This document shows, piece after piece, positions 10,624 through 41,613 of a stretch of 64,000 nucleotides of DNA (positions within the stretch are counted from its first letter, which is position 1; each line of letters starts with the position of its first letter). The DNA comes from Streptomyces sp. NBC_01571. GTDB taxonomy: Bacteria > Actinomycetota > Actinomycetes > Streptomycetales > Streptomycetaceae. The stretch covers positions 6,324,001-6,388,000 of the forward strand of contig NZ_JAPEPZ010000001.1 in assembly GCF_026339875.1 (NCBI RefSeq), written 5' to 3'. A program made the translations under genes and the position numbers. The notes beneath the pieces are model-generated. The model saw only the letters and a list, made by a program, of their open reading frames with translations. It made no database searches and was not told where the DNA came from.

Positions 10624-10635
10624 CTACGCGCGTTA
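10624..10635. promoter_or_regulatory. nucleoside-regulon operator copy A (upstream of BMP lipoprotein 1)
   Basis: CTACGCGCGTTA matches the perfect palindrome CTACGCGCGTAG found at four other sites except in the last half-turn. The next bases give TACTGT (10634-10639), a -10-like hexamer, so a bound repressor would cover the promoter. The same arrangement occurs in front of the second BMP gene. The 376-bp gap it lies in otherwise holds only the terminator of the upstream gene. Confidence 0.65.
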
Positions 10636-10713
10636 CTGTGCGCCGAAATCGCTGCGGTGCGGCGTGTTGGGGAAGCGGACCGGCGACGGCCGTGGGGATG
10701 AAGGGTGCTTGCT

Positions 10714-11790
10714 GTGCGTCTGATATCTCGGAGGACCAGGTTCTCCCAAGCAGCGGTGGCCGTCACGGTCATCGCCCTCGCGGCGGTCGGTTGTGGCAAG
10801 TCGAGCACCGACACGGGCGGCGACTCCAAGAAGAGCTCGTCGGGCTACGCCGGGAAGGGCATCGGTCTCGCGTACGACATCGGCGGCAAGGGCGACCAGT
10901 CGTTCAACGACGCCGCGTTCGCCGGTTTCCAGAAGGCCGAGGCGGAGTTCAAGATCGGCGGCCGGGACATCGAGCCGCAGGACGGCGAGTCCGACGCCGA
11001 CAAGGTGCAGCGCCTGGAGCAGCTGGCCAAGTCGGGCTACAACCCGGTGATCGGCGTCGGCTTCGTCTACGCCCCGGCGATCAAGGAAGTCGCGGCCAAG
11101 TACCCGAAGATCACCTTCGGCATCATCGACGACGAGCAGGACAAGGCGGCCAACATCGCCGACCTGGTCTTCCACGAGGAGCAGTCGTCGTACCTCGCGG
11201 GTGTCGCGGCGGCGAAGGCCACGAAGAAGAACCACATCGGCTTCATCGGCGGCGTGGACATCCCGCTGATCCACAAGTTCGAGGCGGGCTTCGACCAGGG
11301 TGCCAAGTCGGTCAACCCGAAGATCAAGATCGAGTCGCAGTACCTGACGCAGACCCCCCAGGAGGGTGGCTTCGCCAGCCCCGACAAGGGCAAGGACGCG
11401 GCGGCCGGTCAGATCGAGAAGGGTGCCGACGTGCTGTACCACGCGGCCGGCCTGTCCGGTCAGGGCGTGATCTCCCAGGCCGCCGCCAAGAAGGTGTGGG
11501 CCATCGGCGTCGACTCCGACCAGTACGCGCAGAGCTCGCTGGCCAAGTACAAGGACTGGATCCTCGGTTCGGCCCTGAAGAACGTCGGCGGCGCCGTGTA
11601 CGACCTGGCCAAGTCCGTCGTCGACGGCAAGCCGCTGAGCGGCGTCGTGCGCGGTGACCTGAAGTCGGGCGGCGTGGGCTTCGCCGACTCCAACCCGAAG
11701 TACAAGGCCCTGCCGGACGTCGTCGCGGCGGTCGACAAGGCCAAGCAGGACATCATCGACGGCAAGGTCACCGTCAACACGAACCCGTGA
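10714..11790 (+). CDS. BMP family nucleoside-binding lipoprotein 1
   Basis: A 358-residue extracytoplasmic solute-binding protein of the BMP/Med family, which captures purine and pyrimidine nucleosides for an ABC importer. An N-terminal signal peptide ends in the lipobox AAVGC (Cys27 lipidated), followed by a Ser/Lys-rich linker; the mature domain starts with IGLAYDIGGKGDQSFND. GTG 10714 was chosen because GAAGGG stands 8 nt upstream; a GTG at 10705 abuts the RBS. It has its own operator-bearing promoter and ends in a strong hairpin, so it is expressed separately from the ABC operon. It is strikingly similar, including at DNA level, to the paralogue at 12667. Confidence 0.93.
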   Translation: MRLISRRTRFSQAAVAVTVIALAAVGCGKSSTDTGGDSKKSSSGYAGKGIGLAYDIGGKGDQSFNDAAFAGFQKAEAEFKIGGRDIEPQDGESDADKVQRLEQLAKSGYNPVIGVGFVYAPAIKEVAAKYPKITFGIIDDEQDKAANIADLVFHEEQSSYLAGVAAAKATKKNHIGFIGGVDIPLIHKFEAGFDQGAKSVNPKIKIESQYLTQTPQEGGFASPDKGKDAAAGQIEKGADVLYHAAGLSGQGVISQAAAKKVWAIGVDSDQYAQSSLAKYKDWILGSALKNVGGAVYDLAKSVVDGKPLSGVVRGDLKSGGVGFADSNPKYKALPDVVAAVDKAKQDIIDGKVTVNTNP

Positions 11791-11817
11791 GTCGTGTCGG
11801 TGGTCGCTGACCACCAT

Positions 11818-11860
11818 GGGGGAGCCCCCGGCCCGCTGTAAGGGCCGGGGGCTCCCCCTT
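11818..11860 (+). terminator. strong hairpin terminator after BMP gene 1
   Basis: A perfect 17-bp stem: the arm 11818-11834 (GGGGGAGCCCCCGGCCC) pairs with 11842-11858 across the 7-nt loop GCTGTAA and is followed by TT. Confidence 0.85.
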
Positions 11861-11951
11861 GCACGGTTGTTGGTCGTCCCCTGCCGTCCACGCGTGCCTG
11901 GCGCGCTCATGGGCGGCAGGACGACCCTGGAATCCGGTCGGCCAGACCTGG

Positions 11952-12296
11952 CTAGACCGGTTCCTCCGTCTCGACGGTGATCCGGTACACCTCGACGCCG
12001 GACGACCTCGGGTCCGTGGTGCAGACGGCCTTGGACGTCTCGCCGTGGCGGGTGCTGACCCACTTGCCGTACACGTTGGCCTTGTCGCCGCGAGGCCCGA
12101 TGCACACCACCTTCACGCGGTGCTCGCTGAGGCGGGTGTTCCCCCCGGTGCACTTCGCGTAACCGGTCGAGCGGTCCGCGGAGATCCGCGTACTGCAGGT
12201 CGACGCGGCCATGGCGGGCGTCGCGACACCGACCACGGTGCCCGACAGCACCACACCGACGCCTATCGCGGTTGCGGTGAACTTGTTGAGTTTCAC
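11952..12296 (-). CDS. small secreted protein of unknown function
   Basis: A 114-residue protein with a clear Sec signal peptide: MKLNKF, a hydrophobic core and a cleavage site near TPAMAAS. The mature part is about 84 residues with several cysteines (CSTRIS, YAKCTGG, VVCIGP, AVCTTD), which could form two disulfides outside the cell. The start is GTG with AAGGGGG 3-4 nt upstream. I do not recognise a family. It lies between the two BMP genes on the opposite strand and splits them into separate transcription units. Confidence 0.75.
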   Translation of the reverse strand: MKLNKFTATAIGVGVVLSGTVVGVATPAMAASTCSTRISADRSTGYAKCTGGNTRLSEHRVKVVCIGPRGDKANVYGKWVSTRHGETSKAVCTTDPRSSGVEVYRITVETEEPV

Positions 12297-12599
12297 GATC
12301 CCCCTTGGATCAGAAGCGATTGCCGCGGGCTGGTCCGGCCCGCTGCCGCAGGCTGGTCCGGCCTGCGGAGATGCGCATCTCGAACAGGGATTCTTCCGGT
12401 GGGTACCTGACGAAAAGATCCATCCTGGGAAGGATCTTGGGGTGTGTGGCGGTCTGGTACATGACATCGGAGCGGTGGGCGCCGGGCCCGGAGGCCGGGC
12501 GCGTTTGCCGAGCGGACGCGTCCCATGTGTTCGGAGGCCGTTCGCCGAGGGTTCAAAACGGTCGGATAACACTCTGGCAAGGTGGGTTCTCTGCTATGT
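12297..12599. other. intergenic region upstream of BMP gene 2
   Basis: About 300 bp with no gene. It holds the promoter and RBS side of the minus-strand secreted protein and, at the right end, the promoter of BMP gene 2. Open frames here are Arg/Pro/Gly-rich and lack ribosome binding sites. Confidence 0.5.
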
Positions 12600-12611
12600 C
12601 TACGCGCGTTA
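12600..12611. promoter_or_regulatory. nucleoside-regulon operator copy B (upstream of BMP lipoprotein 2)
   Basis: CTACGCGCGTTA, identical to copy A, again runs into a -10-like TACGCT. Similarity to copy A continues a few bases beyond the palindrome, consistent with duplication of gene and promoter together. Confidence 0.65.
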
Positions 12612-12666
12612 CGCTGCGGCGGAATCAGCGCCTGGTCTGGGCGCCTGCACAAAAGGAGTCACGTTC

Positions 12667-13716
12667 ATGCGCCGGGTGTCCCGAATCGCGGTTGCGGGCG
12701 TTGCAACCGCATCCCTCGCCGTTGCTCTCTCCGCCTGTGGCGGCTCGTCCACCGACGCCTCCAGTGGCGGCTCGGCCAAGGGTAAGGGCATCGGTCTCGC
12801 GTACGACATCGGCGGCAAGGGCGACCAGTCCTTCAACGACGCCGCGTTCGCGGGTTTCCAGAAGGCCGAGAAGGACCTCAAGATCGGCGGCCGGGACATC
12901 GAGCCGCAGGACGGCGAGTCCGACGCCGACAAGGTGCAGCGCCTGGAGCAGCTGGCCAAGTCGGGCTACAACCCGGTGATCGGCGTCGGCTTCGTCTACG
13001 CCCCGGCGATCAAGGAAGTCGCGGCCAAGTACCCGAAGATCACCTTCGGCATCATCGACGACGACCAGGACAAGGCCGCGAACGTCGCCGACATGGTCTT
13101 CCACGAGGAGGAGGCCTCCTACCTGGCGGGCGTGGCCGCGGCCAAGGCCACCAAGAAGGACCACATCGGCTTCATCGGCGGCGTGGACATCCCGCTGATC
13201 CACAAGTTCCAGGCCGGTTACGTCCAGGGTGCCAAGTCGGTCAACCCGAAGATCAAGATCGAGTCGCAGTACCTGACGCAGACCCCCCAGGAGGGTGGCT
13301 TCGCCAGCCCCGACAAGGGCAAGGACGCCGCCGAGGGCCAGATCGACGCCGGCGCCGACGTGCTCTACGCCGCCGCGGGCCTGTCGGGCCAGGGCGTCAT
13401 CCAGTCCGCCGCCTCGCACAAGGTGTGGGCCATCGGCGTCGACTCCGACCAGTACAAGCAGGACGCGCTGGCCAAGTACAAGGACTACATCCTGACCTCG
13501 GCCACCAAGGACGTCGCCGGGGCGGTCTTCAACCTCGCGAAGTCGGTGCAGGACGGCAAGCCCGCCACCGGCGTCGTGCGCGCCAGCCTCGCCACCGGCG
13601 GTGTCGGCCTCGCCGACTCGAACCCGACGTTCAAGAACAACGCCGACCTGCAGGCCGCGCTGAAGAAGGCCGAGGCCGGCATCAAGGACGGCTCGATCAA
13701 GGTCAAGACCTCCTGA
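12667..13716 (+). CDS. BMP family nucleoside-binding lipoprotein 2
   Basis: A 349-residue paralogue of the upstream BMP lipoprotein with the same role, delivering nucleosides to the ABC permease encoded just downstream. The signal peptide ends in lipobox LSACG, followed by a Ser/Gly-rich linker; the mature domain starts IGLAYDIGGKGDQSFND. AAAAGGAG lies 7-8 nt before the ATG. Long stretches of DNA are identical to BMP gene 1 (for example 12880-13064 against 10951-11135), while other parts, such as the C-terminal third, have diverged. It is likely the cognate binding protein because it is adjacent to the ATPase gene. Confidence 0.93.
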   Translation: MRRVSRIAVAGVATASLAVALSACGGSSTDASSGGSAKGKGIGLAYDIGGKGDQSFNDAAFAGFQKAEKDLKIGGRDIEPQDGESDADKVQRLEQLAKSGYNPVIGVGFVYAPAIKEVAAKYPKITFGIIDDDQDKAANVADMVFHEEEASYLAGVAAAKATKKDHIGFIGGVDIPLIHKFQAGYVQGAKSVNPKIKIESQYLTQTPQEGGFASPDKGKDAAEGQIDAGADVLYAAAGLSGQGVIQSAASHKVWAIGVDSDQYKQDALAKYKDYILTSATKDVAGAVFNLAKSVQDGKPATGVVRASLATGGVGLADSNPTFKNNADLQAALKKAEAGIKDGSIKVKTS

Positions 13717-13930
13717 TCCGAGTCTCGATCCCCGCCAGGTCACGACGTCATCACCAGACGTCGAAACCATGGCCATGGCGACGCTGAAATGGCAGCGTTA
13801 CGGCCACGGAACGGGGTGTGGGGAGGATGACTTCTCGCGCCCCGTTCGCGCGGCAGAATGCTCGGACGCATCGGATCTGATCGAAAATGATCACCTTCGG
13901 TCCGTCCGGGCACTATTTAAAGCAGGGGCG

Positions 13931-13942
13931 CTACGCGCGTAG
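13931..13942. promoter_or_regulatory. nucleoside-regulon operator copy C (ABC operon)
   Basis: A perfect CTACGCGCGTAG palindrome 28 bp before the proposed ATPase start and 12 bp after a possible -10 (TATTTA, 13914-13919), where a repressor would block transcription or early elongation. Confidence 0.75.
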
Positions 13943-13970
13943 ATGGCCCCTTTTCCAAGGAGAGTGCGCC

Positions 13971-15631
<1,661 letters not shown>

Positions 15632-15635
<4 letters not shown>

Positions 15636-16762
15636 AGAAGTTCGACAAGGAGCGCGTGCTCCTCGCGGTGGCCGGCCCGGTCATCGCGCTCGTCACGGCG
15701 ATCGCACTGACCTCGGTCGTGCTGCTCGCCTCGGGCAAGAGCGCGTTCGAGCCGTACTCCCTGATGCTTCAGCAGGCGACGTACTCCGACACCCAGGTGC
15801 TGATCGTCAACCAGGCGTCGCTGTACTACATCGCGGCGCTCGGCGTGGCCATCGGCTTCCGCATGAACCTGTTCAACATCGGTGTGGACGGCCAGTACCG
15901 CCTCGGCGCGATGATGACCGCGGTGGTCGGCGCCCACCTCGCGCTGCCGTCCTTCCTGCAGATCCCCGTGCTGATGATCGTCGCCATGTGCACCGGCGCC
16001 TTCTGGGCCGGCATCGCGGGCGTCCTGAAGGTCACCCGCGGAGTGAGCGAGGTCGTCGCGACGATCATGCTCAACGCGATCGCCACCAGCCTCATCGGCT
16101 ACCTCACCGCGGAGAACATCTGGGGTGTGCAGGTCGGCAACAACAACACGACCGGCATCATGAAGAAGTCCGGCTGGTTCCCCGGCATCGACCTGGGCTC
16201 GGACGTCGGCGAGATCTACGGCATGGTCTTCCTCGCGGTCCTCATGGGCGTCCTGTACTGGCTCGTCCTCAACCGCACCCGCTTCGGCTTCGACCTGCGC
16301 GCCACCGGCGCCTCCGAGGAGGCCGCCGCGGCCTCCGGCGTCGACGCCAAGCGGATGGTGCTCACCGCGATGCTGATCTCCGGCGCGGTCGCCGGCATCT
16401 CCGGGCTGCCGCTTCTCCTCGGCGACGCCCACACCTACAGCCTGAGCTTCCCCGCCGGCCTCGGCTTCACCGCCATCGGCATCGCGCTGCTCGGCCGCAA
16501 CAACCCGGGCGGCATCGCCCTCGCCGCGCTCCTGTGGGCCTTCCTCGACAAGGCGTCCCCGGCTCTCGACTACGCGACCCCGGTCGCGTACGAGAAGGAG
16601 ATCGCCACGATCATGCAGGGCCTGATCGTCTTCGCGGTCGTCATCTCGTACGAGGCCGTACGTGTCTGGGGCCTGCGCCGCCAGCAGAAGCGGGTCGGTG
16701 AGGAACTGGCCGCCGCGGCCGCCGCCAACAACAACTCCCCGAAGGAGGTGGCTGCCCGATGA
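15632..16762 (+). CDS. nucleoside ABC transporter permease 1
   Basis: A 376-residue integral membrane permease of the BPD_transp_2 (ribose/BMP) type with about 9-10 hydrophobic segments. It begins with a basic MKKFDKER followed by a first membrane helix, and has GVAIGFRMNLFNIGVDGQYR, typical of this family, in the cytoplasmic/loop region. It forms a heterodimer with the next gene product and the double ATPase to import nucleosides. The start overlaps the ATPase stop (ATGA), showing translational coupling, and its stop overlaps the next start in the same way. Confidence 0.93.
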
Positions 16763-18021
16763 GCACCGCGACCGTCGCCAAGCCGCAGGCGCAGCAGCCC
16801 GGCAAGGGCAGCCGCCGTATGTCCCTACCGGTACTCCTGCTCGTCATCGCCGGTGTACTGATCCTGACCTCGATCGTCCGCCTGATCACCGGCGCCGACG
16901 GCATCACCTCCACCGGACAGATGTCCACGGCGCTGCGCCTCGCGGTGCCGATCGGCCTCGCGGGTCTCGGCGGTCTGTGGGCCGAGCGCGCGGGCGTCGT
17001 CAACATCGGCCTCGAGGGCATGATGATCCTCGGCACCTGGTTCGGCGCCTGGGCGGGCTACCAGTGGGGCCCGTGGACCGGTGTCGCCTTCGGGATCATC
17101 GGCGGCTGCCTCGGCGGCATCCTGCACGCCATCGCCACCGTGACCTTCAACGTCAACCACATCGTGTCCGGTGTGGCCATCAACATCCTGGCGCTCGGCA
17201 CCACCCGCTACCTCTCCAAGTTCACCTTCGAGGACGCGCCGCAGGGCTCCTCCAAGCAGTCCCCGCCGATCGACTCGCTCGGGACCTTCGACATCCCAGG
17301 ACTGTCCAGCTGGCTTTCCACCATCAACGGGAAGCACTGGTTCCTGGTCTCGGACATCGCGGGACTGCTCGGCGGCCTGGTCACCGACCTGTCGCCGCTC
17401 ACCCTCGTCGCGGTGGCCCTCGTCCCCGCCACCTGGTGGGTGCTGTGGCGCACGGCCTTCGGCCTGCGTCTGCGCTCCTGCGGTGAGAACCCGGTGGCCG
17501 CCGAGTCCCTCGGCGTCAACGTCTACAAGTACAAGTACATCGCCGTGATCATCTCGGGCGGCTTCGCCGGCCTCGGCGGCGCGTTCCTGTCCATCGTGGC
17601 GTCCAACGTCTACCTGGACGGACAGACGGCCGGCCGCGGCTACATCGGTCTCGCCGCGATGATCTTCGGTAACTGGATGCCGGGCGGCCTCGCCCTCGGC
17701 GCGGGCCTGTTCGGCTACACCGACAGCCTCAACCTGCGCGGCGGCGGCACCAACGTGCACGCGCTGATCCTGCTCCTCGCGATCCTGCTGGTGATCGCCG
17801 TGGCCTACCTGGCCTGGAGGAAGCGGGTCGTGCCCGCGATCGTCACCGCCGTGGTCGCGGCGCTGATGTTCGTCTGGTACCTCGCCACCGACGAGGTCCC
17901 GCAGCAGTTCGTGAGCGCCACTCCGTACGTCGTGACCCTGCTCGTGCTCTCGCTGTCCGCCCAGCATCTGCGGATGCCGAAGGCGGACGGCATGCCGTAC
18001 CGGAGAGGACAGGGCAAGTGA
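16759..18021 (+). CDS. nucleoside ABC transporter permease 2
   Basis: A 420-residue membrane permease, the second half of the channel. It has the family segment GLWAERAGVVNIGLEGMMI and about ten hydrophobic helices; an extra hydrophilic insert (about residues 155-200, with SKFTFEDAPQGSSKQSPPID) probably forms an external loop. The start overlaps the previous stop (ATGA) and its stop overlaps the cytidine deaminase start (GTGA), so uptake and the first catabolic step are translationally coupled. Confidence 0.93.
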   Translation: MSTATVAKPQAQQPGKGSRRMSLPVLLLVIAGVLILTSIVRLITGADGITSTGQMSTALRLAVPIGLAGLGGLWAERAGVVNIGLEGMMILGTWFGAWAGYQWGPWTGVAFGIIGGCLGGILHAIATVTFNVNHIVSGVAINILALGTTRYLSKFTFEDAPQGSSKQSPPIDSLGTFDIPGLSSWLSTINGKHWFLVSDIAGLLGGLVTDLSPLTLVAVALVPATWWVLWRTAFGLRLRSCGENPVAAESLGVNVYKYKYIAVIISGGFAGLGGAFLSIVASNVYLDGQTAGRGYIGLAAMIFGNWMPGGLALGAGLFGYTDSLNLRGGGTNVHALILLLAILLVIAVAYLAWRKRVVPAIVTAVVAALMFVWYLATDEVPQQFVSATPYVVTLLVLSLSAQHLRMPKADGMPYRRGQGK

Positions 18022-18461
18022 CCTTCCCGGAGGCCGGATCCGCGGAGCCCGGATCCCGGGAGACCGGGGCCGCGGACGTCGACTGGGAGGCCCTGCGGGA
18101 GCTTGCGCGGGACGCCATGTCCCGCGCCTACGCCCCCTATTCCGGGTTCCCGGTGGGTGTCGCGGCGCTCGTCGACGACGGCCGGACCGTCACCGGCTGC
18201 AACGTCGAGAACGCCTCGTACGGGCTCGGGCTGTGCGCCGAGTGCGGTCTCGTCTCCCAGCTGCAGAACAGCGGGGGCGGTCGGCTGACGCACTTCACCT
18301 GCGTCGACGGGCGCGGCGAGATCCTCGTGCCGTGCGGACGCTGCCGCCAGCTGCTGTACGAGTTCGGCGGGCCCGGCCTGCTCGTGGAGACGCCGGCCGG
18401 GATCCTGCCGCTCTCCGAGATGCTGCCCCAGGCCTTCGGGCCGGAGAATCTCACCAAGTAA
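18018..18461 (+). CDS. cdd: cytidine deaminase
   Basis: A 147-residue zinc enzyme converting cytidine or deoxycytidine to uridine or deoxyuridine. It has the zinc and proton-shuttle motif CAE (Cys73, Glu75) and PCGRC (Cys106, Cys109), plus the substrate loop NVENASYG. Size matches the small tetrameric class, with an extra acidic N-terminal 20 residues. It is the fourth gene of the nucleoside-uptake operon, coupled by GTGA to the permease. A 15-bp hairpin directly after the stop separates it from thymidine phosphorylase. Confidence 0.95.
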   Translation: MTFPEAGSAEPGSRETGAADVDWEALRELARDAMSRAYAPYSGFPVGVAALVDDGRTVTGCNVENASYGLGLCAECGLVSQLQNSGGGRLTHFTCVDGRGEILVPCGRCRQLLYEFGGPGLLVETPAGILPLSEMLPQAFGPENLTK

Positions 18462-18468
18462 CGCCTGT

Positions 18469-18541: not shown

Positions 18542-19825
<1,284 letters not shown>

Positions 19826-24140: not shown

Positions 24141-24146
24141 GCTTCG

Positions 24147-26047: not shown

Positions 26048-26069
26048 CTACGCGCGTAGGGGCTACAGT
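26048..26069 (+). promoter_or_regulatory. adenosine deaminase promoter with nucleoside-regulon operator copy D
   Basis: A perfect CTACGCGCGTAG at 26048-26059 lies immediately upstream of the -10 TACAGT (26064-26069), which is 6 nt from the ATG. A repressor here would occlude the promoter spacer. Confidence 0.8.
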
Positions 26070-26075: not shown

Positions 26076-27230
26076 ATGACGAGCCAGATCCGGAACACCC
26101 CGAGCTCGGAACAGATCCGCCGGGCGCCCAAGGTCCTGCTGCACGATCACCTCGACGGGGGCCTGCGCCCCGGGACGATCGTCGAACTCGCCCGGGAGAG
26201 CGGCTACTCGGGGCTCCCCGAGACCGACCCCGGCAAACTCGGCGTCTGGTTCAGGGAGGCCGCCGACTCCGGTTCCCTCGAGCGGTACCTGGAGACCTTC
26301 GCGCACACCTGCGCCGTCATGCAGACCCGTGAGGCGCTGGTGCGGGTCGCCGCCGAGTGCGCCGAGGACCTCGCCGAGGACGGGGTCGTCTACGCCGAGG
26401 TGCGGTACGCCCCCGAGCAGCATCTGGAGCGCGGGCTGACCCTCGAAGAGGTCGTGGAGGCGGTCAACGAGGGCTTCCGGGAGGGCGAGCGCCTGGCCCG
26501 GGAGAACGGCCACCGCATCCGGGTGGGCGCGCTGCTCACCGCGATGCGGCACGCGGCCCGTGCCCTGGAGATCGCCGAACTGGCCAACCGTTACCGGGAC
26601 CTGGGCGTCGTCGGCTTCGACATCGCGGGGGCCGAGGCCGGGTTCCCGCCCACCCGGCACCTCGACGCGTTCGAGTACCTCAAGCGCGAGAACAACCACT
26701 TCACCATCCACGCGGGCGAGGCCTTCGGGCTGCCCTCCATCTGGCAGGCGCTCCAGTGGTGCGGCGCGGACCGGCTCGGTCACGGCGTCCGGATCATCGA
26801 CGACATCGAGGTCGCGCAGGACGGCTCGGTGACGCTCGGGCGCCTCGCGTCGTACGTCCGGGACAAGCGCATCCCGTTGGAGCTGTGCCCCAGCTCCAAC
26901 CTCCAGACCGGTGCCGCCGACTCCTATGCCGAGCACCCGATCGGGTTGTTGCGGCGGTTGCACTTCCGGGCCACGGTGAACACGGACAACCGGCTCATGT
27001 CCGGGACGAGCATGAGCCGCGAATTCGAGCACCTTGTCGACGCGTTCGGTTATTCACTCGACGATCTCCAGTGGTTCTCGGTCAATGCTATGAAGTCAGC
27101 ATTCATTCCTTTCGATGAACGACTCGCCATGATCAATGACGTGATCAAGCCGGGATATGCCGAGCTGAAGTCCGAATGGTTGTTCCAGCAGACCGCTTCC
27201 ATCAGGGGATCCTTGGAGAATCAGGCCTGA
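26076..27230 (+). CDS. add: adenosine deaminase
   Basis: A 384-residue zinc aminohydrolase converting adenosine or deoxyadenosine to inosine or deoxyinosine in the cytoplasm. It has the metal-binding HDHLDGG (His23, His25), the substrate and zinc motif HAGEAFG, the catalytic-His segment DRLGHG, and VNTDNRLMS near the C-terminus in place of the usual double-Asp motif, a substitution common in actinobacterial homologues. Length is typical for this subgroup. The leaderless start is set by TACAGT 6 nt upstream. It carries operator copy D, joining it to the nucleoside uptake genes and the phosphorylases. Confidence 0.95.
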
Positions 27231-34117: not shown

Positions 34118-34119
34118 GC

Positions 34120-34149
34120 TTCCCCGCGCCCCTCGGGGGGCGCGGGGAA
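34120..34149. terminator. bidirectional hairpin terminator
   Basis: TTCCCCGCGCCCC (34120-34132) pairs with GGGGCGCGGGGAA (34137-34149) across TCGG. A perfect 13-bp stem between convergent genes (secreted protein and aldehyde dehydrogenase-like gene). Confidence 0.85.
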
Positions 34150-34155
34150 CCCGAC

Positions 34156-35055
34156 TCAGTACGACGAGCCCGAGGCGCCCAGTGAACCGGTCGGGTGCCA
34201 GACGGTCTTCGTCTCCAGGAAGGCCGTGAGGCGCTCGATGCCGGGGGTCTTCGCGTAGTCCACAGGCTGTGGACGCAGGACCCGCTTCAGGTTGTCGGCC
34301 GCGGCGATCTCCAGCTCCTTCGCCAGGACGTCGTCCGCGCCCGCGAGGTCGATCGCGTTGACGTCCTGGTGCGCGGCGAGGGGAGCGGCGATCTCCGCCG
34401 TCCTGCCGGAGAGGACGTTGACGACACCGCCCGGGAGGTCGGAGGTCGCCAGCACCTCGCCGAGCGACAGTGCCGGCAGCGGGGACTTCTCGCTCGCGAT
34501 CACCACCGCCGTGTTACCGGTCGCGATCACCGGGGCGATCACCGAGACCAGGCCCAGGAACGAGGACTCCTGGGGTGCGAGGACGGTGACGACACCGGTC
34601 GGTTCCGGGGTCGACAGGTTGAAGAACGGGCCCGCGACGGGGTTGGCCCCGCCCACGACCTGGGCGATCTTGTCGGTCCAGCCCGCGTACCAGACCCAGC
34701 GGTCGACGGCCGCGTCGACCTGGGCGGCCGCCTTCGACTTCGACAGGCCCTCCGCGTCCGCGACCTCGCGCGCGAACTGGTCCCTGCGGCCCTCCAGCAT
34801 CTCGGCGACGCGGTAGAGGATCTGGCCGCGGTTGTACGCGGTCGCGCCGGACCAGCCGCCGAACGCCTTGCGCGCGGCGACCACCGCGTCACGGGCGTCC
34901 TTGCGGCTCGACTGCGGGGCGTTCGCCAGCCACTTGCCCTTGGAGTCCGTCACCTCGTACACCCGGCCGCTCTCGGAACGCGGGAACTTCCCGCCCACGT
35001 ACAGCTTGTAGGTCTTGAAGACACTCAGACGCTGCTCTTCGGACTTGTCAGACAT
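34156..35055 (-). CDS. short, probably non-catalytic aldehyde dehydrogenase-family protein
   Basis: A 299-residue ALDH-fold protein, far shorter than the usual 480-500. It has the N-terminal NAD-domain features (KTYKLYVGGKFPRSESGRVY, WVWYAGWTDKIAQVVGG) and part of the cofactor region (TPEPTGVVTVLAPQESSFLG), but I find neither the catalytic Cys nor the general-base Glu motif. It matches the second ALDH-like half of ALDH16-type proteins. Its ATG overlaps the stop of the full-length ALDH gene by 8 bp (ATGTCTGA), so the two are made together and likely form a complex in which this one is structural. Confidence 0.85.
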   Translation of the reverse strand: MSDKSEEQRLSVFKTYKLYVGGKFPRSESGRVYEVTDSKGKWLANAPQSSRKDARDAVVAARKAFGGWSGATAYNRGQILYRVAEMLEGRRDQFAREVADAEGLSKSKAAAQVDAAVDRWVWYAGWTDKIAQVVGGANPVAGPFFNLSTPEPTGVVTVLAPQESSFLGLVSVIAPVIATGNTAVVIASEKSPLPALSLGEVLATSDLPGGVVNVLSGRTAEIAAPLAAHQDVNAIDLAGADDVLAKELEIAAADNLKRVLRPQPVDYAKTPGIERLTAFLETKTVWHPTGSLGASGSSY

Positions 35056-36484
35056 CGAGGTACGCCTCCAGGCCGTGGCGGCCGCCCTCGCGGCCGAAGC
35101 CCGACTCCTTGTAACCGCCGAACGGCGAGGTCGGGTCGAACTTGTTGAACGTGTTGGACCAGATGACGCCCGCGCGCAGCTTGCCCGCGACGGCCAGGAT
35201 CCGGGAACCCTTCTCCGTCCAGATGCCCGCCGACAGGCCGTACTGGGAGTTGTTGGCCTTGGCGACGGCCTCGTCCGGGGTGCGGAAGGTGAGGACCGAC
35301 AGCACCGGGCCGAAGATCTCGTCGCGGGCGATGGTGTGCGCCTGGGTGACGTTGGTGAACAGCGTCGGGGCGAACCAGTATCCGGAGGAGGGCAGTTCAC
35401 AGGCCGGGGACCAGCGCTCGGCGCCCTCGGCCGTGCCCTGCTCGACGAGCGAGGTGATACGGGCCAGCTGCTCGGCGGAGTTGATCGCGCCGATGTCGGT
35501 GTTCTTGTCGAGCGGGTCGCCCAGACGCAGGGTGGAGAGCCTGCGCTTCAGGGAGTCCAGCAGCTCGTCCTGGATCGACTCCTGGACGAGGAGCCGGCTG
35601 CCCGCGCAGCAGACCTGGCCCTGGTTGAAGAAGATCCCGGTGACGATCCCCTCCACCGCCTGGTCGATCGGGGCGTCGTCGAAGACGATGTTCGCGCCCT
35701 TGCCGCCCAGTTCGAGGGTGACCTTCTTGTCGGTGCCGGCCACCTGGCGGGCGATGGCCTTGCCGACGGCGGTCGAGCCGGTGAACGCGACCTTGTTCAC
35801 GTCGGGGTGCTCGACGAGCGCGGCGCCCGCGTCGCCGTATCCCGGAAGGATGTTGACGACGCCCTTGGGCAGGCCCGCCTGGCGGCAGATGTCCGCGAAG
35901 AACAGCGCCGACAGCGGGGTGGTCTCGGCGGGCTTGAGGACGACCGTGTTGCCGGTCGCCAGCGCCGGGGCGATCTTCCACGCCAGCATCAGCAGCGGGA
36001 AGTTCCAGGGGATGACCTGGCCGGCCACGCCCAGCGGGCGCGGGTTCGCGCCGAAGCCGGCGTGGTCGAGCTTGTCGGCCCAGCCCGCGTAGTAGAAGAA
36101 GTGCGCGGCGACCAGGGGGAGGTCGGCGTCGCGGGTCTCCTTGATGGGCTTCCCGTTGTCCAGCGTCTCCAGGACGGCGAGCTCGCGGGAGCGCTCCTGG
36201 ACGATGCGGGCGATGCGGTAGAGGTACTTGGCGCGCTCGGAACCGGGCAGCGCCGACCACTTCTCGAAGGCCCTGCGCGCCGCCTTCACGGCACGGTCGA
36301 CGTCCTCGGCGCCCGCCCGGGCGACCTCGGAGAGGACCTCCTCCGTGCTGGGGCTGACGGTCTTGAAGACCTTGCCGTCCGCCGCCTCGGTGAACTCGCC
36401 GTCGATGAACAGGCCGTACGACGGGGCGATGTCGACGACCGAGCGGGACTCGGGCGCCGGTGCGTACTCGAATGCAGATGCCAT
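35048..36484 (-). CDS. aldehyde dehydrogenase
   Basis: A 478-residue NAD(P)-dependent aldehyde dehydrogenase with the general base in LELGGKG and the catalytic cysteine in FFNQGQVCCAGSR, plus the oxyanion and Rossmann segments IPWNFPLLM and GSTAVGK. Gene order deoC, this gene, then the short ALDH-like partner (5 bp between deoC and this gene) strongly suggests that it oxidises the acetaldehyde released by DeoC. With its partner it parallels the two-part ALDH16 family. ATG start. Confidence 0.93.
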   Translation of the reverse strand: MASAFEYAPAPESRSVVDIAPSYGLFIDGEFTEAADGKVFKTVSPSTEEVLSEVARAGAEDVDRAVKAARRAFEKWSALPGSERAKYLYRIARIVQERSRELAVLETLDNGKPIKETRDADLPLVAAHFFYYAGWADKLDHAGFGANPRPLGVAGQVIPWNFPLLMLAWKIAPALATGNTVVLKPAETTPLSALFFADICRQAGLPKGVVNILPGYGDAGAALVEHPDVNKVAFTGSTAVGKAIARQVAGTDKKVTLELGGKGANIVFDDAPIDQAVEGIVTGIFFNQGQVCCAGSRLLVQESIQDELLDSLKRRLSTLRLGDPLDKNTDIGAINSAEQLARITSLVEQGTAEGAERWSPACELPSSGYWFAPTLFTNVTQAHTIARDEIFGPVLSVLTFRTPDEAVAKANNSQYGLSAGIWTEKGSRILAVAGKLRAGVIWSNTFNKFDPTSPFGGYKESGFGREGGRHGLEAYLDV

Positions 36485-36489
36485 GGTGA

Positions 36490-37485
36490 TCAGTCCACCG
36501 TCACGTAGTCGGGGCCGGAGTAGCGGCCGGTGGCCAGCTTCTGACGCTGCATCAGCAGGTCGTTCAGCAGCGAGGACGCGCCGAAGCGGAACCAGTGGTT
36601 GTCCAGCCAGTCCTCGCCCGCGGTCTCGTTCACCAGGACCAGGAACTTGACGGCGTCCTTGGTGGTGCGGATGCCGCCGGCCGGCTTCACGCCGACCTGG
36701 ACGCCGGTCTGCGCGCGGAAGTCGCGGACCGCCTCCAGCATGAGCAGCGTGTTCGACGGCGTCGCGTTGACGGCCACCTTGCCGGTGGAGGTCTTGATGA
36801 AGTCCGCGCCGGCCAGCATGCCGAGCCAGGAAGCCCGCCGGATGTTGTCGTACGTCGACAGCTCGCCGGTCTCGAAGATGACCTTAAGACGGGCGGCGCC
36901 CGAGGCCTCCTTCACCGCGACGATCTCGTCGTACACCTTCAGGTAGTGGCCCGCGAGGAACGCCCCGCGGTCGATGACCATGTCGATCTCGTCGGCGCCC
37001 GCGGCGACGGCGTCCCGCACGTCGGCCAGCTTCACGCCGAGCGCGGCGCGGCCCGCCGGGAAGGCGGTGGCCACGGAGGCGACCTTCACACCGGAACCGG
37101 CCACGGCCTCCTTGGCGGTGGCCACCATGTCGGGATAGACGCAGACCGCGGCCGTGGCGGGCGCCGTGCGGTCGGTCGGGTCCGGGTGGACCGCCTTGAC
37201 GCCGAGCGCCCGGACCTTGCCCGGGGTGTCCGCGCCTTCCAGCGTCGTCAGGTCGACCATCGAGATGGCGAGGTCGATCGCGTACGCCTTCGCGGTCGTC
37301 TTGATGGAACGGGTGCCGAGCGAGGCGGCGCGCGCCTCCAGGCCGACCGCGTCGACGCCGGGCAACCCGTGCAGGAAGCGGCGCAGGGTGCTGTCGGACG
37401 AGGTCACATCGCCGAGTGCGTGGGTGGGGGCACCACCCTGCTCGAGCGAAGTCGAGTGCTTGGGGGAGGGTGCAGTGGTGGGCAT
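36490..37485 (-). CDS. deoC: deoxyribose-phosphate aldolase
   Basis: A 331-residue class I aldolase splitting 2-deoxyribose-5-phosphate into glyceraldehyde-3-phosphate and acetaldehyde. Active-site regions seen are DEIDMVIDRGAFL, VIFETGEL and the Schiff-base lysine in DFIKTSTGK, with GVKPAGGIRT for phosphate binding. The first 25 residues are atypical: residues 6-21 are encoded by a hairpin-forming repeat inserted in frame. The gene is first in a three-gene operon with the ALDH pair and has a perfect nucleoside-regulon operator 20 bp upstream. ATG 37485; a GTG two codons earlier is possible. Confidence 0.93.
   Translation of the reverse strand: MPTTAPSPKHSTSLEQGGAPTHALGDVTSSDSTLRRFLHGLPGVDAVGLEARAASLGTRSIKTTAKAYAIDLAISMVDLTTLEGADTPGKVRALGVKAVHPDPTDRTAPATAAVCVYPDMVATAKEAVAGSGVKVASVATAFPAGRAALGVKLADVRDAVAAGADEIDMVIDRGAFLAGHYLKVYDEIVAVKEASGAARLKVIFETGELSTYDNIRRASWLGMLAGADFIKTSTGKVAVNATPSNTLLMLEAVRDFRAQTGVQVGVKPAGGIRTTKDAVKFLVLVNETAGEDWLDNHWFRFGASSLLNDLLMQRQKLATGRYSGPDYVTVD
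37423..37470. repeat. hairpin-forming repeat inserted in the deoC coding region
   Basis: A 48-bp (16-codon) segment on the plus strand runs from GGTGGGGGCACCACCCTG through CTCGAGCGAAGTCGAG to GCTTGGGGGAGGG. It has a CTCGA/TCGAG core and complementary G- and C-rich flanks. It resembles a short palindromic element I remember as frequent between Streptomyces genes (not verified). Here it encodes residues 6-21 of DeoC without breaking the frame. Confidence 0.6.
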
Positions 37486-37504
37486 GGTCACCACCCGAGC
37501 ATAT

Positions 37505-37516
37505 CTACGCGCGTAG
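37505..37516. promoter_or_regulatory. nucleoside-regulon operator copy E (deoC operon)
   Basis: A perfect CTACGCGCGTAG 20 bp before the deoC start. In the minus sense it runs directly into TAGATAT, a probable -10, so repressor binding would block the promoter. Confidence 0.78.
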
Positions 37517-37617
37517 CGGCTGTACAGCCCCGGGGGTGGGTGTGGAAGGGGCGGGGGAACCGGCGAGACGGCGGGGGCGGAAGAGGCCGCCCCGGGCCGT
37601 CGGGCAGAATCGGGGGC

Positions 37618-38253
37618 ATGACGACGCCCGATCACCAGCCACCCCCGCCGGACGCCTCGCGCCCCGAGTCGAGGGACCGGATCTACCGGTCATCCGCCGG
37701 CATCGCGGGCGGCGTGCTGCTCCTCGCCATCATGGGCTGGCTCGGCATCGACGCGCTGGTCTCGGGACATGGACGCACCCCGTGGCTGGCGCTCGCCACG
37801 CTGATCCTGCTGGTCCCGCTGGTGACCGCGTTCACCCTGCGGCCGGCCGTGTACGCGAACGAGGACCGGCTGCGCATCCGCAACCCGTTCCGCGTCATCG
37901 TGCTGCCCTGGACCACGATCGCCACGCTGCGCTCCGGCTATTCCAACGAGGCCGTCACCACGGACGGCACCAAGTACCAGCTGTGGGCGGTCCCCGTCTC
38001 GCTGCGCTCCCGCAAGCGCGCGGCCAGGCGGCAGGCGCGGGGAGAGGCGGCCGACAGCTCCGGGCGCGGCACCCCGGCCACGCCCGCGCGCGCCCAGGCC
38101 GACCAGGCCATGGACGACCTGCGCGAGCTCGCCGAGGCGCACCCGGCCACCGAAGGGGCGCAGGCCGCGGTCAGCGTGCGCTGGGCGTACAAGGTCATGG
38201 GTCCGGCGCTCGCGGGCGCCGTGGTGCTGGCGATCCTGCTCGCGGTGGGGTGA
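37618..38253 (+). CDS. PH-domain membrane protein
   Basis: A 211-residue protein with a Pro-rich cytoplasmic start, two transmembrane helices (about 27-47 and 53-73), a bacterial PH-like domain (LRPAVYANEDRLRIRNPFRV, VLPWTTIATLRSGYSNEAV), a low-complexity linker and a C-terminal transmembrane helix (MGPALAGAVVLAILLAV). Function unknown; PH-domain proteins of this kind are widespread in actinobacteria. It is divergent from deoC. ATG with a GGGGGC stretch upstream. Confidence 0.85.
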   Translation: MTTPDHQPPPPDASRPESRDRIYRSSAGIAGGVLLLAIMGWLGIDALVSGHGRTPWLALATLILLVPLVTAFTLRPAVYANEDRLRIRNPFRVIVLPWTTIATLRSGYSNEAVTTDGTKYQLWAVPVSLRSRKRAARRQARGEAADSSGRGTPATPARAQADQAMDDLRELAEAHPATEGAQAAVSVRWAYKVMGPALAGAVVLAILLAVG

Positions 38254-38853
38254 CGCCACAGAGGTGCGGCGGGTGCGCCGTCACCGGTTCGCCGGGGTGA
38301 GCGAGGGACGGCCGGTTCGCCGGGTCTGAGAACGGCGGGGCCCGTCGGTCGCGGCGCCGCGGGCCGGTGTCGCCGCGTACGGCCGGCCGCTGTCCCGTAC
38401 GACCGTGCGCCCGACCCGGGCCGGGTCGTCCTGTCCCGCGGAGCCGCGGCGTAGGCCGGCAGAGCGGGGGCCGCCCGGCCCAGCCGGGTGCGGAGCGAGG
38501 CCGCGGACCCGAGGAGCCGGGTGCCCGGGGTGGTGTCCGGGAGGAGCCCGCCGGGGGAGTTCCGGGACGGGGCGGAGGTCGGCCGGGAAGCGGTCGGGGA
38601 CACGCGGCAGCTCCTGGGACTCGGCGGGGCGCTACCGGTAACCGTTCCTCGGCCGGGTGGCGGCGCACGGGAGTGCTGCGTCAAGTGCCGGGCGGAAATA
38701 TCACCCGCAGGGGCGGTGGAGGGGTGGTCCGGGGTGCTCGGTGGGCCCACCCGGTGCTGTTCGGTGCACCCACCCGGCCCCGCTCCGTGGGTCCGTCCCG
38801 CCCAGCTCCGTGGGCCCACCGGGTCCTGCCCGGCGGGCCCACCGGGGCCGGCG
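38254..38853. other. 600-bp gene-free region with repeated GGGCCCACC blocks
   Basis: No gene is convincing on either strand: open frames are Arg/Pro/Gly translations of GC-rich DNA. From about 38740 to 38850 the block GTGGGCCCACC or a close variant recurs several times (for example TCGGTGGGCCCACCCGG, CCGTGGGCCCACCGGG, GCGGGCCCACCGGG), giving a degenerate palindromic repeat just past the end of the convergent mutase gene, possibly a terminator or transcript 3' structure. Confidence 0.5.
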
Positions 38854-40491
38854 TCAGATGCCGGCCGCCGCCGACAGGTCGCGCTTGATGGCCGTGAGCA
38901 GCTCGGCGGCCTCGGCGTGGGCCGCGGCGAGTCCGGCGTGCGAGCCGACCGGCACCACGACCTCCAGGTAGCACTTCAGCTTCGGCTCCGTACCGCTGGG
39001 GCGGACGATGACGCGGGCGCCGTCCAGCGTGTAGCGCAGACCGTCCGTGGGCGGGAGCCTGTCGGTGCCCAGGGTGAGGTCCTCGGCCTTGGTGATGGGC
39101 AGGCCCGCCAGCCGCGTGGGCGGCTGTTCGCGCAGGCTGCGCATGGCGTTCGCGATCACCGAGAGGTCCTCGACACGGACGGAGAGCTGGTCCGTGGCGT
39201 GCAGACCGTGCTCCACGGCGATGTCGTCGAGCAGGTCCAGCAGGGTACGGCCGTCCTCCTTGAGCTGGGAGGCGAGCTCCGTGATCAGGAGGGCCGCCGT
39301 GATGCCGTCCTTGTCGCGCACCCCCTCGGGGTCGACGCAGTAGCCGAGCGCCTCCTCGTAGCCGTAGCGCAGGTCCTCCACACGGGCGATCCACTTGAAG
39401 CCGGTCAGGGTCTCCTCGTACGCCAGACCCGCCTTCTCGGCGATCCGGCCGAGGAGGGAGGAGGAGACGATCGACTCGGCGAAGGTGCCGCGGGCGCCGC
39501 GGTCGACCAGGTGCCGGGCGAGCAGCGTGCCGACCTCGTCGCCGCGCAGCATCCGCCAGTCCGCGCCCTCGCGGCCCTTCACGGCCACCGCGCAGCGGTC
39601 CGCGTCGGGGTCGTTGGCGATGATCAGGTCGGGGTCCGTCTCACGGGCCTTCGCGAAGGCGAGGTCCATCGCGCCGGGCTCTTCCGGGTTGGGGAAGGCG
39701 ACGGTGGGGAAGTCCGGGTCCGGCTCGGCCTGTTCGGCGACCAGTACGGGGGTGGGGAAGCCGGCGCGGGCGAAGGCGGCGAGCAGGACGTCCTTGCCGA
39801 CGCCGTGCATCGCCGTGTAGACGGTACGGGCGGTGCGGGGGGAGTCCTGGGCGAGCACGGCGTCCGTACGGGCCAGGTAGGCGTTCAGGACGCCGTCGTC
39901 GAGGATCTCCCAGCCGCTGTCCGGGCGGGGGACGGTGTCCAGGCGGGTGACCGCGTCGATCTCGGCCGCGATCTCGGCGTCCGCCGGGGGGACGATCTGG
40001 GAGCCGTCGCCGAGGTACACCTTGTAGCCGTTGTCGCGGGGCGGGTTGTGGCTGGCGGTGACCTCGACGCCCGCCACGGCACCGAGGTGCCGAATGGCGT
40101 AGGCCAGGACGGGCGTGGGGAGAGGGCGGGGCAGCACGGCGGCCCGCAGGCCCGCGCCCGTCATCACCGCGGCGGTGTCGCGGGCGAAGTCGGCGGACTT
40201 GTGGCGGGCGTCGTAGCCGATGACGACGAGACCGCCGGCCTCGCCCTTGGCCTTGAGGTACGCGGCCAGACCGGCGGCGGCGCGGATGACCACCGCGCGG
40301 TTCATGCGCATCGGGCCCGCGCCGAGTTCGCCCCGCAGTCCCGCGGTGCCGAACTGGAGGGTGCCGCTGAAGCGTGCGGTGAGCTCGGCGACGTCCCGGG
40401 CGTCGATGAGCTTGGCGAGTTCCTCACGGGTCTCCGCGTCGGGGTCCTCGGCCAGCCACGCCTCGGCCCGTGCGATGAGTTCGTCCTGCAC
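38854..40491 (-). CDS. phosphosugar mutase (phosphomannomutase/phosphoglucomutase family)
   Basis: A 545-residue alpha-D-phosphohexomutase family enzyme. It has the phosphoserine loop VTASHNPPRDNGYK, the metal-binding NDPDADRCAV, the sugar-specificity loop YCVDPEGVRDKDG and the C-terminal phosphate-binding RPSGTEPKLKCY. Members of this long subgroup (PgcA-like) interconvert hexose or pentose phosphates. Lying next to purine nucleoside phosphorylase on the same strand, it is a good candidate for the phosphopentomutase step turning (deoxy)ribose-1-phosphate into the 5-phosphate that DeoC uses. GTG start. No deoB-type gene is present in the window. Confidence 0.9.
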   Translation of the reverse strand: MQDELIARAEAWLAEDPDAETREELAKLIDARDVAELTARFSGTLQFGTAGLRGELGAGPMRMNRAVVIRAAAGLAAYLKAKGEAGGLVVIGYDARHKSADFARDTAAVMTGAGLRAAVLPRPLPTPVLAYAIRHLGAVAGVEVTASHNPPRDNGYKVYLGDGSQIVPPADAEIAAEIDAVTRLDTVPRPDSGWEILDDGVLNAYLARTDAVLAQDSPRTARTVYTAMHGVGKDVLLAAFARAGFPTPVLVAEQAEPDPDFPTVAFPNPEEPGAMDLAFAKARETDPDLIIANDPDADRCAVAVKGREGADWRMLRGDEVGTLLARHLVDRGARGTFAESIVSSSLLGRIAEKAGLAYEETLTGFKWIARVEDLRYGYEEALGYCVDPEGVRDKDGITAALLITELASQLKEDGRTLLDLLDDIAVEHGLHATDQLSVRVEDLSVIANAMRSLREQPPTRLAGLPITKAEDLTLGTDRLPPTDGLRYTLDGARVIVRPSGTEPKLKCYLEVVVPVGSHAGLAAAHAEAAELLTAIKRDLSAAAGI

Positions 40492-40655
40492 GTCGGGTGT
40501 ACCTCTCTGTCTGTGGTGCCTTGCTGATACCGGGCCGCGGTGGGCTTTCCGCGTCCCCCGCCGCTCCTACCCCGTCCCGTTCCCGGGGACCGTCCCCCCG
40601 GACCCCCGCTTCGGCCCGAACGTCCTCGTCCTCGGACGCGGGCGGGCCGAGTCGC

Positions 40656-40716
40656 CCAGGGGCGCGGGGAACCGCGCGTCCGGCCCCCACCCGCCCGCGG
40701 CCGGACGACGCACCGT
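40656..40716. repeat. Streptomyces GGGGCGCGGGGAA-type extragenic element
   Basis: CCAGGGGCGCGGGGAACCGC followed by a C-rich block and CCCGCGGCCGGACGACGCAC resembles a roughly 60-bp extragenic element I remember as abundant in Streptomyces genomes (memory only). It lies in the 260-bp gap between the purine nucleoside phosphorylase and mutase genes. The GGGGCGCGGGGAA core also occurs in the terminator at 34137-34149. Confidence 0.45.
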
Positions 40717-40751
40717 CGAACGCCGACACCGGGGGACCCGGGGCGCGGTCC

Positions 40752-41576
40752 CTACAGCCGGTCCAGGACCTGGGTGAGCAGCGCACCCATGCGGGTCGCG
40801 GAGTCACGGCCGGCCTGGAGGACCTCCTCGTGGTTCAGCGGCTCGCCCGTCATACCGGCGGCGAGGTTGGTGACGAGGGAGATGCCCAGCACCTCCGCCC
40901 CGGCCTCACGCGCGGCGATGGCCTCGAGGACCGTCGACATGCCGACGAGGTCCGCGCCGATGGTGCGGGCCATCCGGATCTCGGCGGGCGTCTCGTAGTG
41001 CGGCCCGGTGAACTGCGCGTAGACGCCCTCCTCCAGGGTGGGGTCCACCTCCTTGCAGAGGGCGCGCAGCCGCGGGGAGTAGAGGTCGGTGAGGTCGACG
41101 AAGTTCGCCCCGACGATCGGGGAGGTCGCCGTCAGGTTGATGTGGTCGCTGATCAGCACCGGCTGGCCGGGACGCATGTCGGCGCGCAGGCCGCCGCAGC
41201 CGTTGGTGAGCACGAGGGTCTTGCAGCCGGCGGCGACGGCCGTACGGACACCGTGCGCGACGGCGGCGACTCCGCGGCCCTCGTAGTAGTGGGTGCGGCC
41301 CAGGAAGACCAGGGCCCGCTTGTCGCCGATCAGGTACGAGCGGACCTTGCCGCCGTGGCCCTCGACCGCGGGCGGGGGGAACCCGGGCAGCTCGGTGACC
41401 TGGAACTCGGCCTCGGGGGAGCCGAGGGCGTCCACGGCCGGAGCCCAGCCGGAGCCCATCACGAGCGCGACGTCGTGGGTCTCGGCGCCCGTGAGCTCCC
41501 GCAGGCGTGTGGCGGCGGCGTCGGCAGCGGCGTAGGGGTCGCCCTGGATGTCGTCCGGAAGAAGAGATGCGTTCAC
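40752..41576 (-). CDS. purine nucleoside phosphorylase
   Basis: A 274-residue trimeric-type purine nucleoside phosphorylase that cleaves inosine or guanosine and their deoxy forms to base plus (deoxy)ribose-1-phosphate. It has the phosphate loop MGSGW, the [10 protein letters not shown] segment, TNGCGGL and the purine-binding region [12 protein letters not shown], with the substrate Asn in SLVTNLAAG. The GTG start at 41576 is 7 nt after TACCCT (41584-41589, minus sense), implying leaderless mRNA; ATG 41582 is the alternative. A perfect nucleoside-regulon operator sits 26 bp upstream. Confidence 0.95.
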
Positions 41577-41601
41577 GCGCATGAGGGTAGCCGGTCCGGG
41601 C

Positions 41602-41613
41602 CTACGCGCGTAG
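41602..41613. promoter_or_regulatory. nucleoside-regulon operator copy F (purine nucleoside phosphorylase)
   Basis: A perfect CTACGCGCGTAG placed 12 bp upstream of the -10 TACCCT in minus sense, overlapping the expected -35 position. Confidence 0.78.

Follow-up and report, generated by a model that had tools for sequence, protein, structure and literature searches.

In Escherichia coli, the genes for nucleoside uptake, for deaminase and phosphorylase and for deoxyribose aldolase are controlled by two regulators, CytR and DeoR, and by CRP. PurR, which ties transport to purine synthesis, binds operators with a central CpG, a feature typical of LacI-family operators. In the available part of PMC4052901, PurR has a role in purine synthesis, and AdeR, HpxR and UriR are LacI-family regulators of nucleoside utilisation; the Corynebacterium UriR and AdeR/HpxR groups act locally. 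NupR of Bacillus thuringiensis regulates nucleoside permease genes and belongs to the GntR/HutC family, with a 20-bp imperfect site (available part of PMC9430930). Here we analysed a 64,000-nucleotide stretch of Streptomyces sp. NBC_01571 (the window), in which a 12-bp palindrome, CTACGCGCGTAG, or its asymmetric variant, CTACGCGCGTTA, precedes six units: two BMP-family lipoprotein genes (BMP1 and BMP2), an ABC importer operon, add, deoC with aldehyde dehydrogenase (ALDH)-like genes, and a purine-nucleoside phosphorylase (PNP) gene. The palindrome and its promoter-adapted variants are very likely the operators of a LacI-family repressor encoded beside glnR. Among the matches listed from the open-licence literature, no regulator of these genes was reported in Streptomyces; a regulon for this LacI group may already have been predicted computationally.

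An earlier note on this DNA had proposed that the palindrome marks these units as one regulon. All six sites, in both word forms, were located as it claimed, and its remark that the 64 kb hold no further perfect copy was borne out: exact CTACGCGCGTAG occurs four times, against 0.01 expected, and none of 100 dinucleotide shuffles contained four or more. Two copies of CTACGCGCGTTANNNT were present (0.00 expected). The word is rare in this GC-rich DNA, as the note had supposed: beyond the window's four there is no exact copy in the 11.54-Mb genome; both strands give the identical four places, and a reversed control word has no exact copy genome-wide. With up to two mismatches allowed, the window held 8 words against a shuffle mean of 4.29, a mild excess that 2 of 100 shuffles reached, and the genome held 335 for the palindrome and 813 for the reversed control. 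Because the excess mostly disappears at two mismatches, the evidence resides in exact and near-exact words. The palindrome consists of half-sites CTACGC and GCGTAG with CG at the centre, as in LacI-family operators. Sites end 16 bp before the start codon of add, 10 bp before the called start of deoC, 19 bp before PNP, 28 bp before the ABC ATPase gene (if it starts at 13971), 55 bp before BMP2 and 69 or 120 bp before BMP1, whose start is uncertain.

Conservation in related species, whose absence the note had named as refuting, was examined across the family Streptomycetaceae, and it strongly supported a single regulon. Exact CTACGCGCGTAG was found in all 101 genomes of the genus, at 2 to 6 copies apiece, in 149 of 150 sampled family genomes and in 16 of 17 genera, and it was rare beyond its own group (10 of 268 class genomes sampled outside the genus). 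The sole family exception, G398, carries CTACGCGAGTAG before deoC and CTACGCGCGTTA before PNP. Since loci chosen by the word itself give biased counts, the main counts come from 21 clusters (846 kb), made up of the window and of 40-kb stretches from 20 genomes anchored on a linked DeoR-family gene, and from ABC-anchored loci. Two ABC-like matches below 55% identity (G390, G393) were left out, as were a BMP gene and a deoA gene whose upstream sequence was too short; add was not located in the stretches of G398, G392 and G257. The exact site preceded add in 18 of 18 promoters. At deoC, 15 of 21 promoters had the exact site and 6 a one-mismatch form; at PNP the corresponding figures were 17 and 3, with one two-mismatch site completing the 21. 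BMP promoters carried CTACGCGCGTTA in 19 of 21 cases, the remaining two having CTACGCGCGTAC and CTACGCGCGTTT. ABC promoters had 7 exact and 4 one-mismatch sites among 17; all 9 of the genus were within one mismatch, and the 6 without a site were all from other genera of the family. A one-mismatch site was also present in 3 of 19 deoA promoters.

Near-exact sites (one mismatch or CTACGCGCGTTA) were concentrated at these genes. Within the 846 kb, 94 of 96 lay at BMP, ABC, add, deoC, PNP or deoA, and 2 elsewhere, so that copies at unrelated genes, which the note had named as a refuting case, were all but absent among near-exact words. In the same 21 clusters, the promoters of cdd, the first ALDH gene, pmm, lpd and the DeoR gene had no word within two mismatches. 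Two-mismatch words did appear in the unrelated control promoters of afsQ1 (2/22) and sigQ (1/21) and, among word-selected loci, at cdd (3/29) and lpd (1/37), so the controls are not entirely clean; words with two mismatches are frequent by chance. The sites also move with the genes. In G394, PNP adjoins deoC yet keeps its own site, and in six genomes a second add gene (61 to 63% identical) at an unrelated locus has an exact site at its start. Of 17 family regions read because an exact copy fell away from the main cluster or on another contig, 8 were main-cluster genes on separate contigs, 6 were the second add, and one each preceded a 5′-nucleotidase gene, purS and a HAD hydrolase gene. By these comparative data, the palindrome is real and family-wide, the predicted operator of a nucleoside regulon.

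The position of the sites relative to the promoter was equally regular. A TANNNT hexamer begins at the final TA of CTACGCGCGTTA in 51 of 51 copies, taken from 48 stretches of which some are perhaps the same species. Since this last TA opens the −10 hexamer, the asymmetry of CTACGCGCGTTA is accounted for, and the variant is best read as an operator fused with a promoter. TANNNT follows the site by 4 bp in 17 of 18 add promoters and by 1 bp in 21 of 21 deoC promoters; in the 3 deoA promoters with a site, the hexamer begins at the TAG of the operator itself. This geometry would fit steric repression.

A candidate regulator came from G328, in which the one-mismatch word CTACGCGCGCAG lies 10 bp upstream of a LacI-family gene. 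In the genome of the window this gene lies at G000:C1:5047884-5048906, about 1.3 Mb away, 50 bp after an OmpR-type GlnR-like gene and about 11 kb from one 5′-nucleotidase gene; GlnR was recognized by eye, the NCBIfam matches shown being other response regulators, all below cut-off. It is probably the orthologue of SCO4158, on which Meng et al. reportedly worked in 2012; the assignment comes from synteny beside glnR, not from sequence comparison. The available part of PMC9739823 locates SCO4158, a LacI regulator, downstream of glnR and suggests that glnR is possibly regulated by it. The protein has an N-terminal LacI helix-turn-helix (HTH) domain (PF00356 above cut-off at G000:C1:5047902), and over residues ~4 to 337 its PDB matches are CcpA as the nearest, then RbsR and PurR, consistent with a sugar-binding-protein-like effector domain. 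The gene had a single match in each of 29 family genomes, at 69 to 100% identity; in the class sample, matches were found in 23 genomes of the genus at 82 to 100%, and outside the family at no more than 47% among the matches listed. Its own promoter carries CGCGTAGA[AC]T in 25 of the 29 genomes, the TAG standing some 12 bp upstream of the start codon. The 12-mer there has a degenerate left half and differs from the palindrome at 1 to 4 positions in 26 genomes; in G403 it is GCGCATAGAAT. Among 30 LacI-type helices of the genome, TSTAVVSY occurs in this protein alone, and none of the 29 other LacI-type promoters has CWACNCGNGTWG, the motif form compared beyond the family, within one mismatch.

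The recognition helix and the operator were then compared in homologues outside the family, the nearest of which are 41 to 47% identical among the matches listed. Eighteen homologues with a located helix, all sharing AVVSY, were included; a 19th (L417), whose helix was not located, was left out. Exact CWACNCGNGTWG stood in the 200 bp before the HTH in 8 of 18, against 0.008 expected (500 shuffles each), and a form with at most one mismatch in 13 of 18, against 0.38; 2 of the 18 show CTAANCGNTTAG-like forms. As the motif form was fixed after the first seven loci, the 11 later loci are the fair test: 3 were exact and 8 lay within one mismatch, against 0.22 expected. Helix and half-site varied together. 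SPAVVSY homologues have CAAC half-sites (6 of 6), STAVVSY homologues have CTA half-sites in 7 of 10 with no site in the other 3, and both SVAVVSY homologues have a mixed site, as direct recognition would predict. These results make the glnR-linked LacI protein very probably the regulator, which agrees with the earlier note's guess of a LacI-like repressor and with the co-occurrence that it had suggested looking for (29 of 29 family genomes).

G184, which encodes the closest outside LacI protein (47%) and alone among the outside genomes holds 3 exact copies, was treated as a coincidence, because its copies are not at recognisable nucleoside genes and its LacI promoter lacks the site. L452, a second LacI gene of the window's genome whose helix is similar and whose promoter contains CTGCGCCCGTAG, was rejected as the regulator, being matched in 1 of 29 genomes. 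Another LacI gene of this genome, L430 (C1:337425), has TAACGCGCGTTA, also a perfect palindrome, some 97 bp upstream of the HTH match, with a half-site identical to the odd half of the BMP operator.

Of the 18 NCBIfam models that the LacI protein matched, none reached its cut-off. The protein shares the LacI-family architecture of E. coli PurR, at 31% identity, and does not reach the level of a PurR orthologue (NF007979, 182.6 against 501); the PurR half-site differs from the present one, and the present regulon is mainly catabolic and salvage. CytR and RbsR are each 30% identical. The CytR model NF008269 gave 166.7 against 436 and the UriR model NF051853 gave 119.8 against 550, so neither orthology is indicated. 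The gene content under predicted control resembles that of CytR and DeoR in E. coli; the difference is that here one nearly invariant operator would serve.

The regulon is probably wider than the window. One-mismatch words were surveyed in the genome of the window (19 of 20 places) and in G404, G328 and G227 (40 places). The purS gene is preceded by CTACCCGCGTAG in the window's genome, by CTACGCGCATAG in G404 and by an exact site in G227. A secreted 5′-nucleotidase gene, divergent from a GNAT gene that we take to be mshD-like, has a one-mismatch site in the window's genome and G227 and an exact site in G328. One-mismatch sites also precede a second secreted cyclic phosphodiesterase/nucleotidase gene (window's genome, G227), a secreted LTD-type protein gene (window's genome, G404, G328), an NCS2-type permease gene and a carbon-nitrogen hydrolase gene, the latter with an aminotransferase-like gene behind it (both in the window's genome, G227 and G404). 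The LTD-type protein of G328 scored 144 of 300 with the ExeM/NucH nuclease model, below cut-off. In G404 the hydrolase operon includes a dihydropyrimidinase-like gene, and in G227 an NCS1-type permease gene (below cut-off) has a one-mismatch site upstream. The dihydropyrimidinase, the aminotransferase and some G404 and G227 orthologues were named by sequence appearance and not by a curated cut-off. Counted by reading, 18 of 59 one-mismatch places precede nucleic-acid genes, a second add or the LacI gene (6 of 19 in the window's genome, 4 of 14 in G404, 2 of 11 in G328 and 6 of 15 in G227). With the recurring sites, the predicted regulon probably takes in purSQL, genes for secreted nucleotidases and for a nuclease, nucleobase permease genes and an operon for pyrimidine breakdown.

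Some other one-mismatch places recurred among the genomes surveyed. GTACGCGCGTAG lies 30 bp before rpoB (named by eye), with a conserved leader after it, in the window's genome (C1:6081796, L017), G404 (L314) and G227 (L339), and may reflect either leader conservation or a target. Sites fall between secreted muramidase-like and divergent MarR-like genes (named by eye) in G404 (L315) and G227 (L340). CTTCGCGCGTAG lies some 270 bp upstream of a peptide-ABC permease-like gene, also named by eye, in the window's genome (L018) and G227 (L341), and a gene for a secreted protein of no assigned function has an upstream site in the window's genome (L005) and G404 (L319). CTACGCGCGTCG stands right where the coding sequence of a secreted GmrSD_C-type nuclease-like gene begins (window's genome, L010; G227, L336), where it may reflect coding conservation.

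In the mechanism that we propose, a dimer of the LacI protein would bind the CTACGCGCGTAG palindrome. The sites are immediately upstream of the −10 element, over it or near the presumed transcription start, and a repressor bound there would obstruct RNA polymerase. Its release by a small molecule derived from nucleic-acid metabolism would allow coordinated nucleoside import, deamination, phosphorolysis and deoxyribose breakdown, together with expression of the unlinked purine, nucleotidase, nuclease, permease and pyrimidine genes; the repressor may weakly autoregulate. Computation supplies the site conservation, the promoter geometry, the regulon content, the co-distribution with the LacI gene and the motif upstream of homologues that share the helix; we infer binding, the sign of regulation and the effector.

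Several observations weigh against assigning the operator to this LacI protein and its regulon. The homologues of G184, G102 and G281 (3 of 18, all STAVVSY) have nothing like the motif upstream. The homologue cases are not independent, because the 8 exact ones all belong to family f19 (two in one genome) and five CTACTCGAATAG sites to one genus. Outside the family, 25 BMP/ABC nucleoside loci had no CWACNCGNGTWG within one mismatch, apart from two stray matches; a shared-word comparison of 15 such loci gave no convincing common palindrome, the overlap being mostly one intergenic stretch counted twice. The LacI promoters of G390, G393 and G398, from three genera, lack the site, and in the window's genome the corresponding site, CCATCCGCGTAG, has 3 mismatches and, judged only by their number, is no better than several other LacI promoters. 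Part of the LacI promoter conservation may need no operator, since TAGACT would be its −10. PurR residues R190 and T192, which we take to be hypoxanthine contacts, are replaced by T or S and by P, respectively, and because they are not conserved a PurR-like effector is not supported. In the one-mismatch survey, 41 of 59 places are not before nucleic-acid or LacI genes and include coding sequence and unrelated genes; for this reason single sites are weak and weight is given to the recurring ones. Finally, the available part of PMC4365011 calls SCO4158 ccpA and gives it a constitutive promoter, which is mildly counter to autoregulation.

That name, and the rank of CcpA as nearest solved structure, would suit a global CcpA-like carbon catabolite regulator for which nucleoside genes are one target group of many. 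Sites and model score make this quite improbable: the four exact sites of the window's genome are all at nucleoside genes, 16 of the 17 family regions read have theirs at nucleoside or nucleotide genes, the exception being the HAD hydrolase gene, and the ccpA model TIGR01481 gave 160.3 against a cut-off of 442.35. It is also improbable, if somewhat less so, that another, unlinked regulator binds the palindrome. The in-depth tests covered LacI- and DeoR-type genes, and in two genomes a one-mismatch site has a MarR-like gene running divergently from it (L315, L340). An unlinked regulator would, however, turn both the palindromes of the LacI homologues and the helix-operator covariation into coincidence, and the only other LacI protein of the genome with a similar helix (L452) is that found in 1 of 29 genomes.

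The earlier note's own candidate, the linked DeoR-family protein, would respond to deoxyribose-5-phosphate or a sugar phosphate in a role like that of DeoR in E. coli, which controls the deo genes. Its gene lies near PNP in the window and adjoins lpd in 17 of 17 family genera examined. The note had itself remarked that the DeoR promoter lacks the site, and rightly: the best word there has 3 mismatches, and 13 of 13 DeoR promoters have at least 3. Around 14 DeoR loci outside the family (homologues 54 to 69% identical), no neighbour matches the window's nucleoside enzyme genes, some adjoining instead ABC-type or glycosyltransferase-like genes (the latter by eye), and none of these 14 promoters contains CWACNCGNGTWG within one mismatch. 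Among NCBIfam models, AgaR and GlpR come closest without reaching cut-off, and the DeoR model NF007961 gave 74.1 against 244. Own promoters, outside synteny and homologue promoters thus make DeoR a very unlikely repressor of the regulon. We give almost no weight to a chance, structural or RNA feature. The palindrome does sit at several positions relative to the start codon and has an alternating CG-rich core, but it is kept to the base in diverged promoters and placed 94 times at targets against 2 elsewhere, and at add and deoC it lies upstream of the −10-like hexamer and so would not be transcribed.

The features of the window are collected in the table. The earlier note's gene assignments agree with Pfam and NCBIfam for BMP1, the ABC ATPase, add, deoC and PNP, and BMP2 falls below cut-off.

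Table. Predicted operators and associated genes in the window (positions count from its first nucleotide)
Feature	Position	Strand	Remarks
Predicted operator CTACGCGCGTTA of BMP1	10624..10635	+	Final TA opens −10 hexamer TACTGT (10634-10639)
BMP1, nucleoside-binding-type lipoprotein	10756..11790	+	Pfam PF02608; start may be 10705
Predicted operator CTACGCGCGTTA of BMP2	12600..12611	+	Final TA opens −10 hexamer TACGCT (12610-12615)
BMP2, second BMP-family lipoprotein	12667..13716	+	NCBIfam BMP model, below cut-off
Predicted operator CTACGCGCGTAG of ABC importer operon	13931..13942	strand-neutral	
ABC ATPase of importer	13971..15635	+	Pfam PF00005; probable ATC start codon at 13971
Two permease genes	15632-16762, 16759-18021	+	Pfam PF02653
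cdd, cytidine deaminase	18018..18461	+	Overlaps permease gene
deoA, pyrimidine nucleoside phosphorylase	18542..19825	+	
Predicted operator CTACGCGCGTAG of add	26048..26059	strand-neutral	−10-like TACAGT 4 bp after
add, adenosine deaminase	26076..27230	+	Pfam PF00962; NCBIfam above cut-off
Two ALDH-like genes 3′ of deoC	35048-36484, 34156-35055	−	Below specific cut-offs
deoC, deoxyribose-phosphate aldolase	36490..37494	−	Above cut-off
Predicted operator CTACGCGCGTAG of deoC-ALDH (minus-strand genes)	37505..37516	strand-neutral	−10-like TATGCT 1 bp after, minus strand
Phosphomannomutase-like gene (presumed family) 3′ of PNP	38854..40491	−	No site of its own
PNP	40752..41582	−	TIGR01698 above cut-off
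Predicted operator CTACGCGCGTAG of PNP (minus-strand gene)	41602..41613	strand-neutral	
Linked DeoR-family regulator	43839..44801	+	Not favoured as the regulator

Two observations concern the genes themselves. The ABC ATPase gene apparently starts at ATC (window 13958-13973): AGGAGAGTGCGYC-ATC, once ATA, occurs in 32 of 48 stretches, and in 22 of these 32 there is no in-frame ATG, GTG or TTG between it and the upstream stop. In 6 of the 22, the first internal canonical start is at residue 50 or later, beyond the Walker A region; the window's own copy has an in-frame ATG 84 nucleotides upstream of the ATC. The gene possibly has a conserved non-canonical start codon. An accA-like gene lies near the DeoR/lpd-like pair in most family stretches (window 42223-47296).

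Recycled nucleic acids of dying mycelium and of soil can be a source of carbon, nitrogen and phosphate for Streptomyces. One LacI repressor may govern the entire nucleic-acid scavenging route of the Streptomycetaceae: secreted nucleases and nucleotidases, import of nucleosides and nucleobases, purine synthesis and breakdown of the pyrimidine ring. It would act through an operator preserved base for base in 16 of the 17 genera sampled and fused into the −10 element of BMP promoters; the regulon would have arisen in the family's ancestor when an older LacI lineage, itself autoregulated, was recruited, and relatives of this lineage elsewhere would retain that operator type. We regard the chances for and against this broader picture as evenly balanced. 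If the LacI protein is indeed the regulator, a conserved orphan LacI gene beside the nitrogen regulator gene glnR would gain a function, an exact operator and a set of predicted targets, and the pattern linking helix to half-site would be of use in predicting the operators of other LacI proteins.

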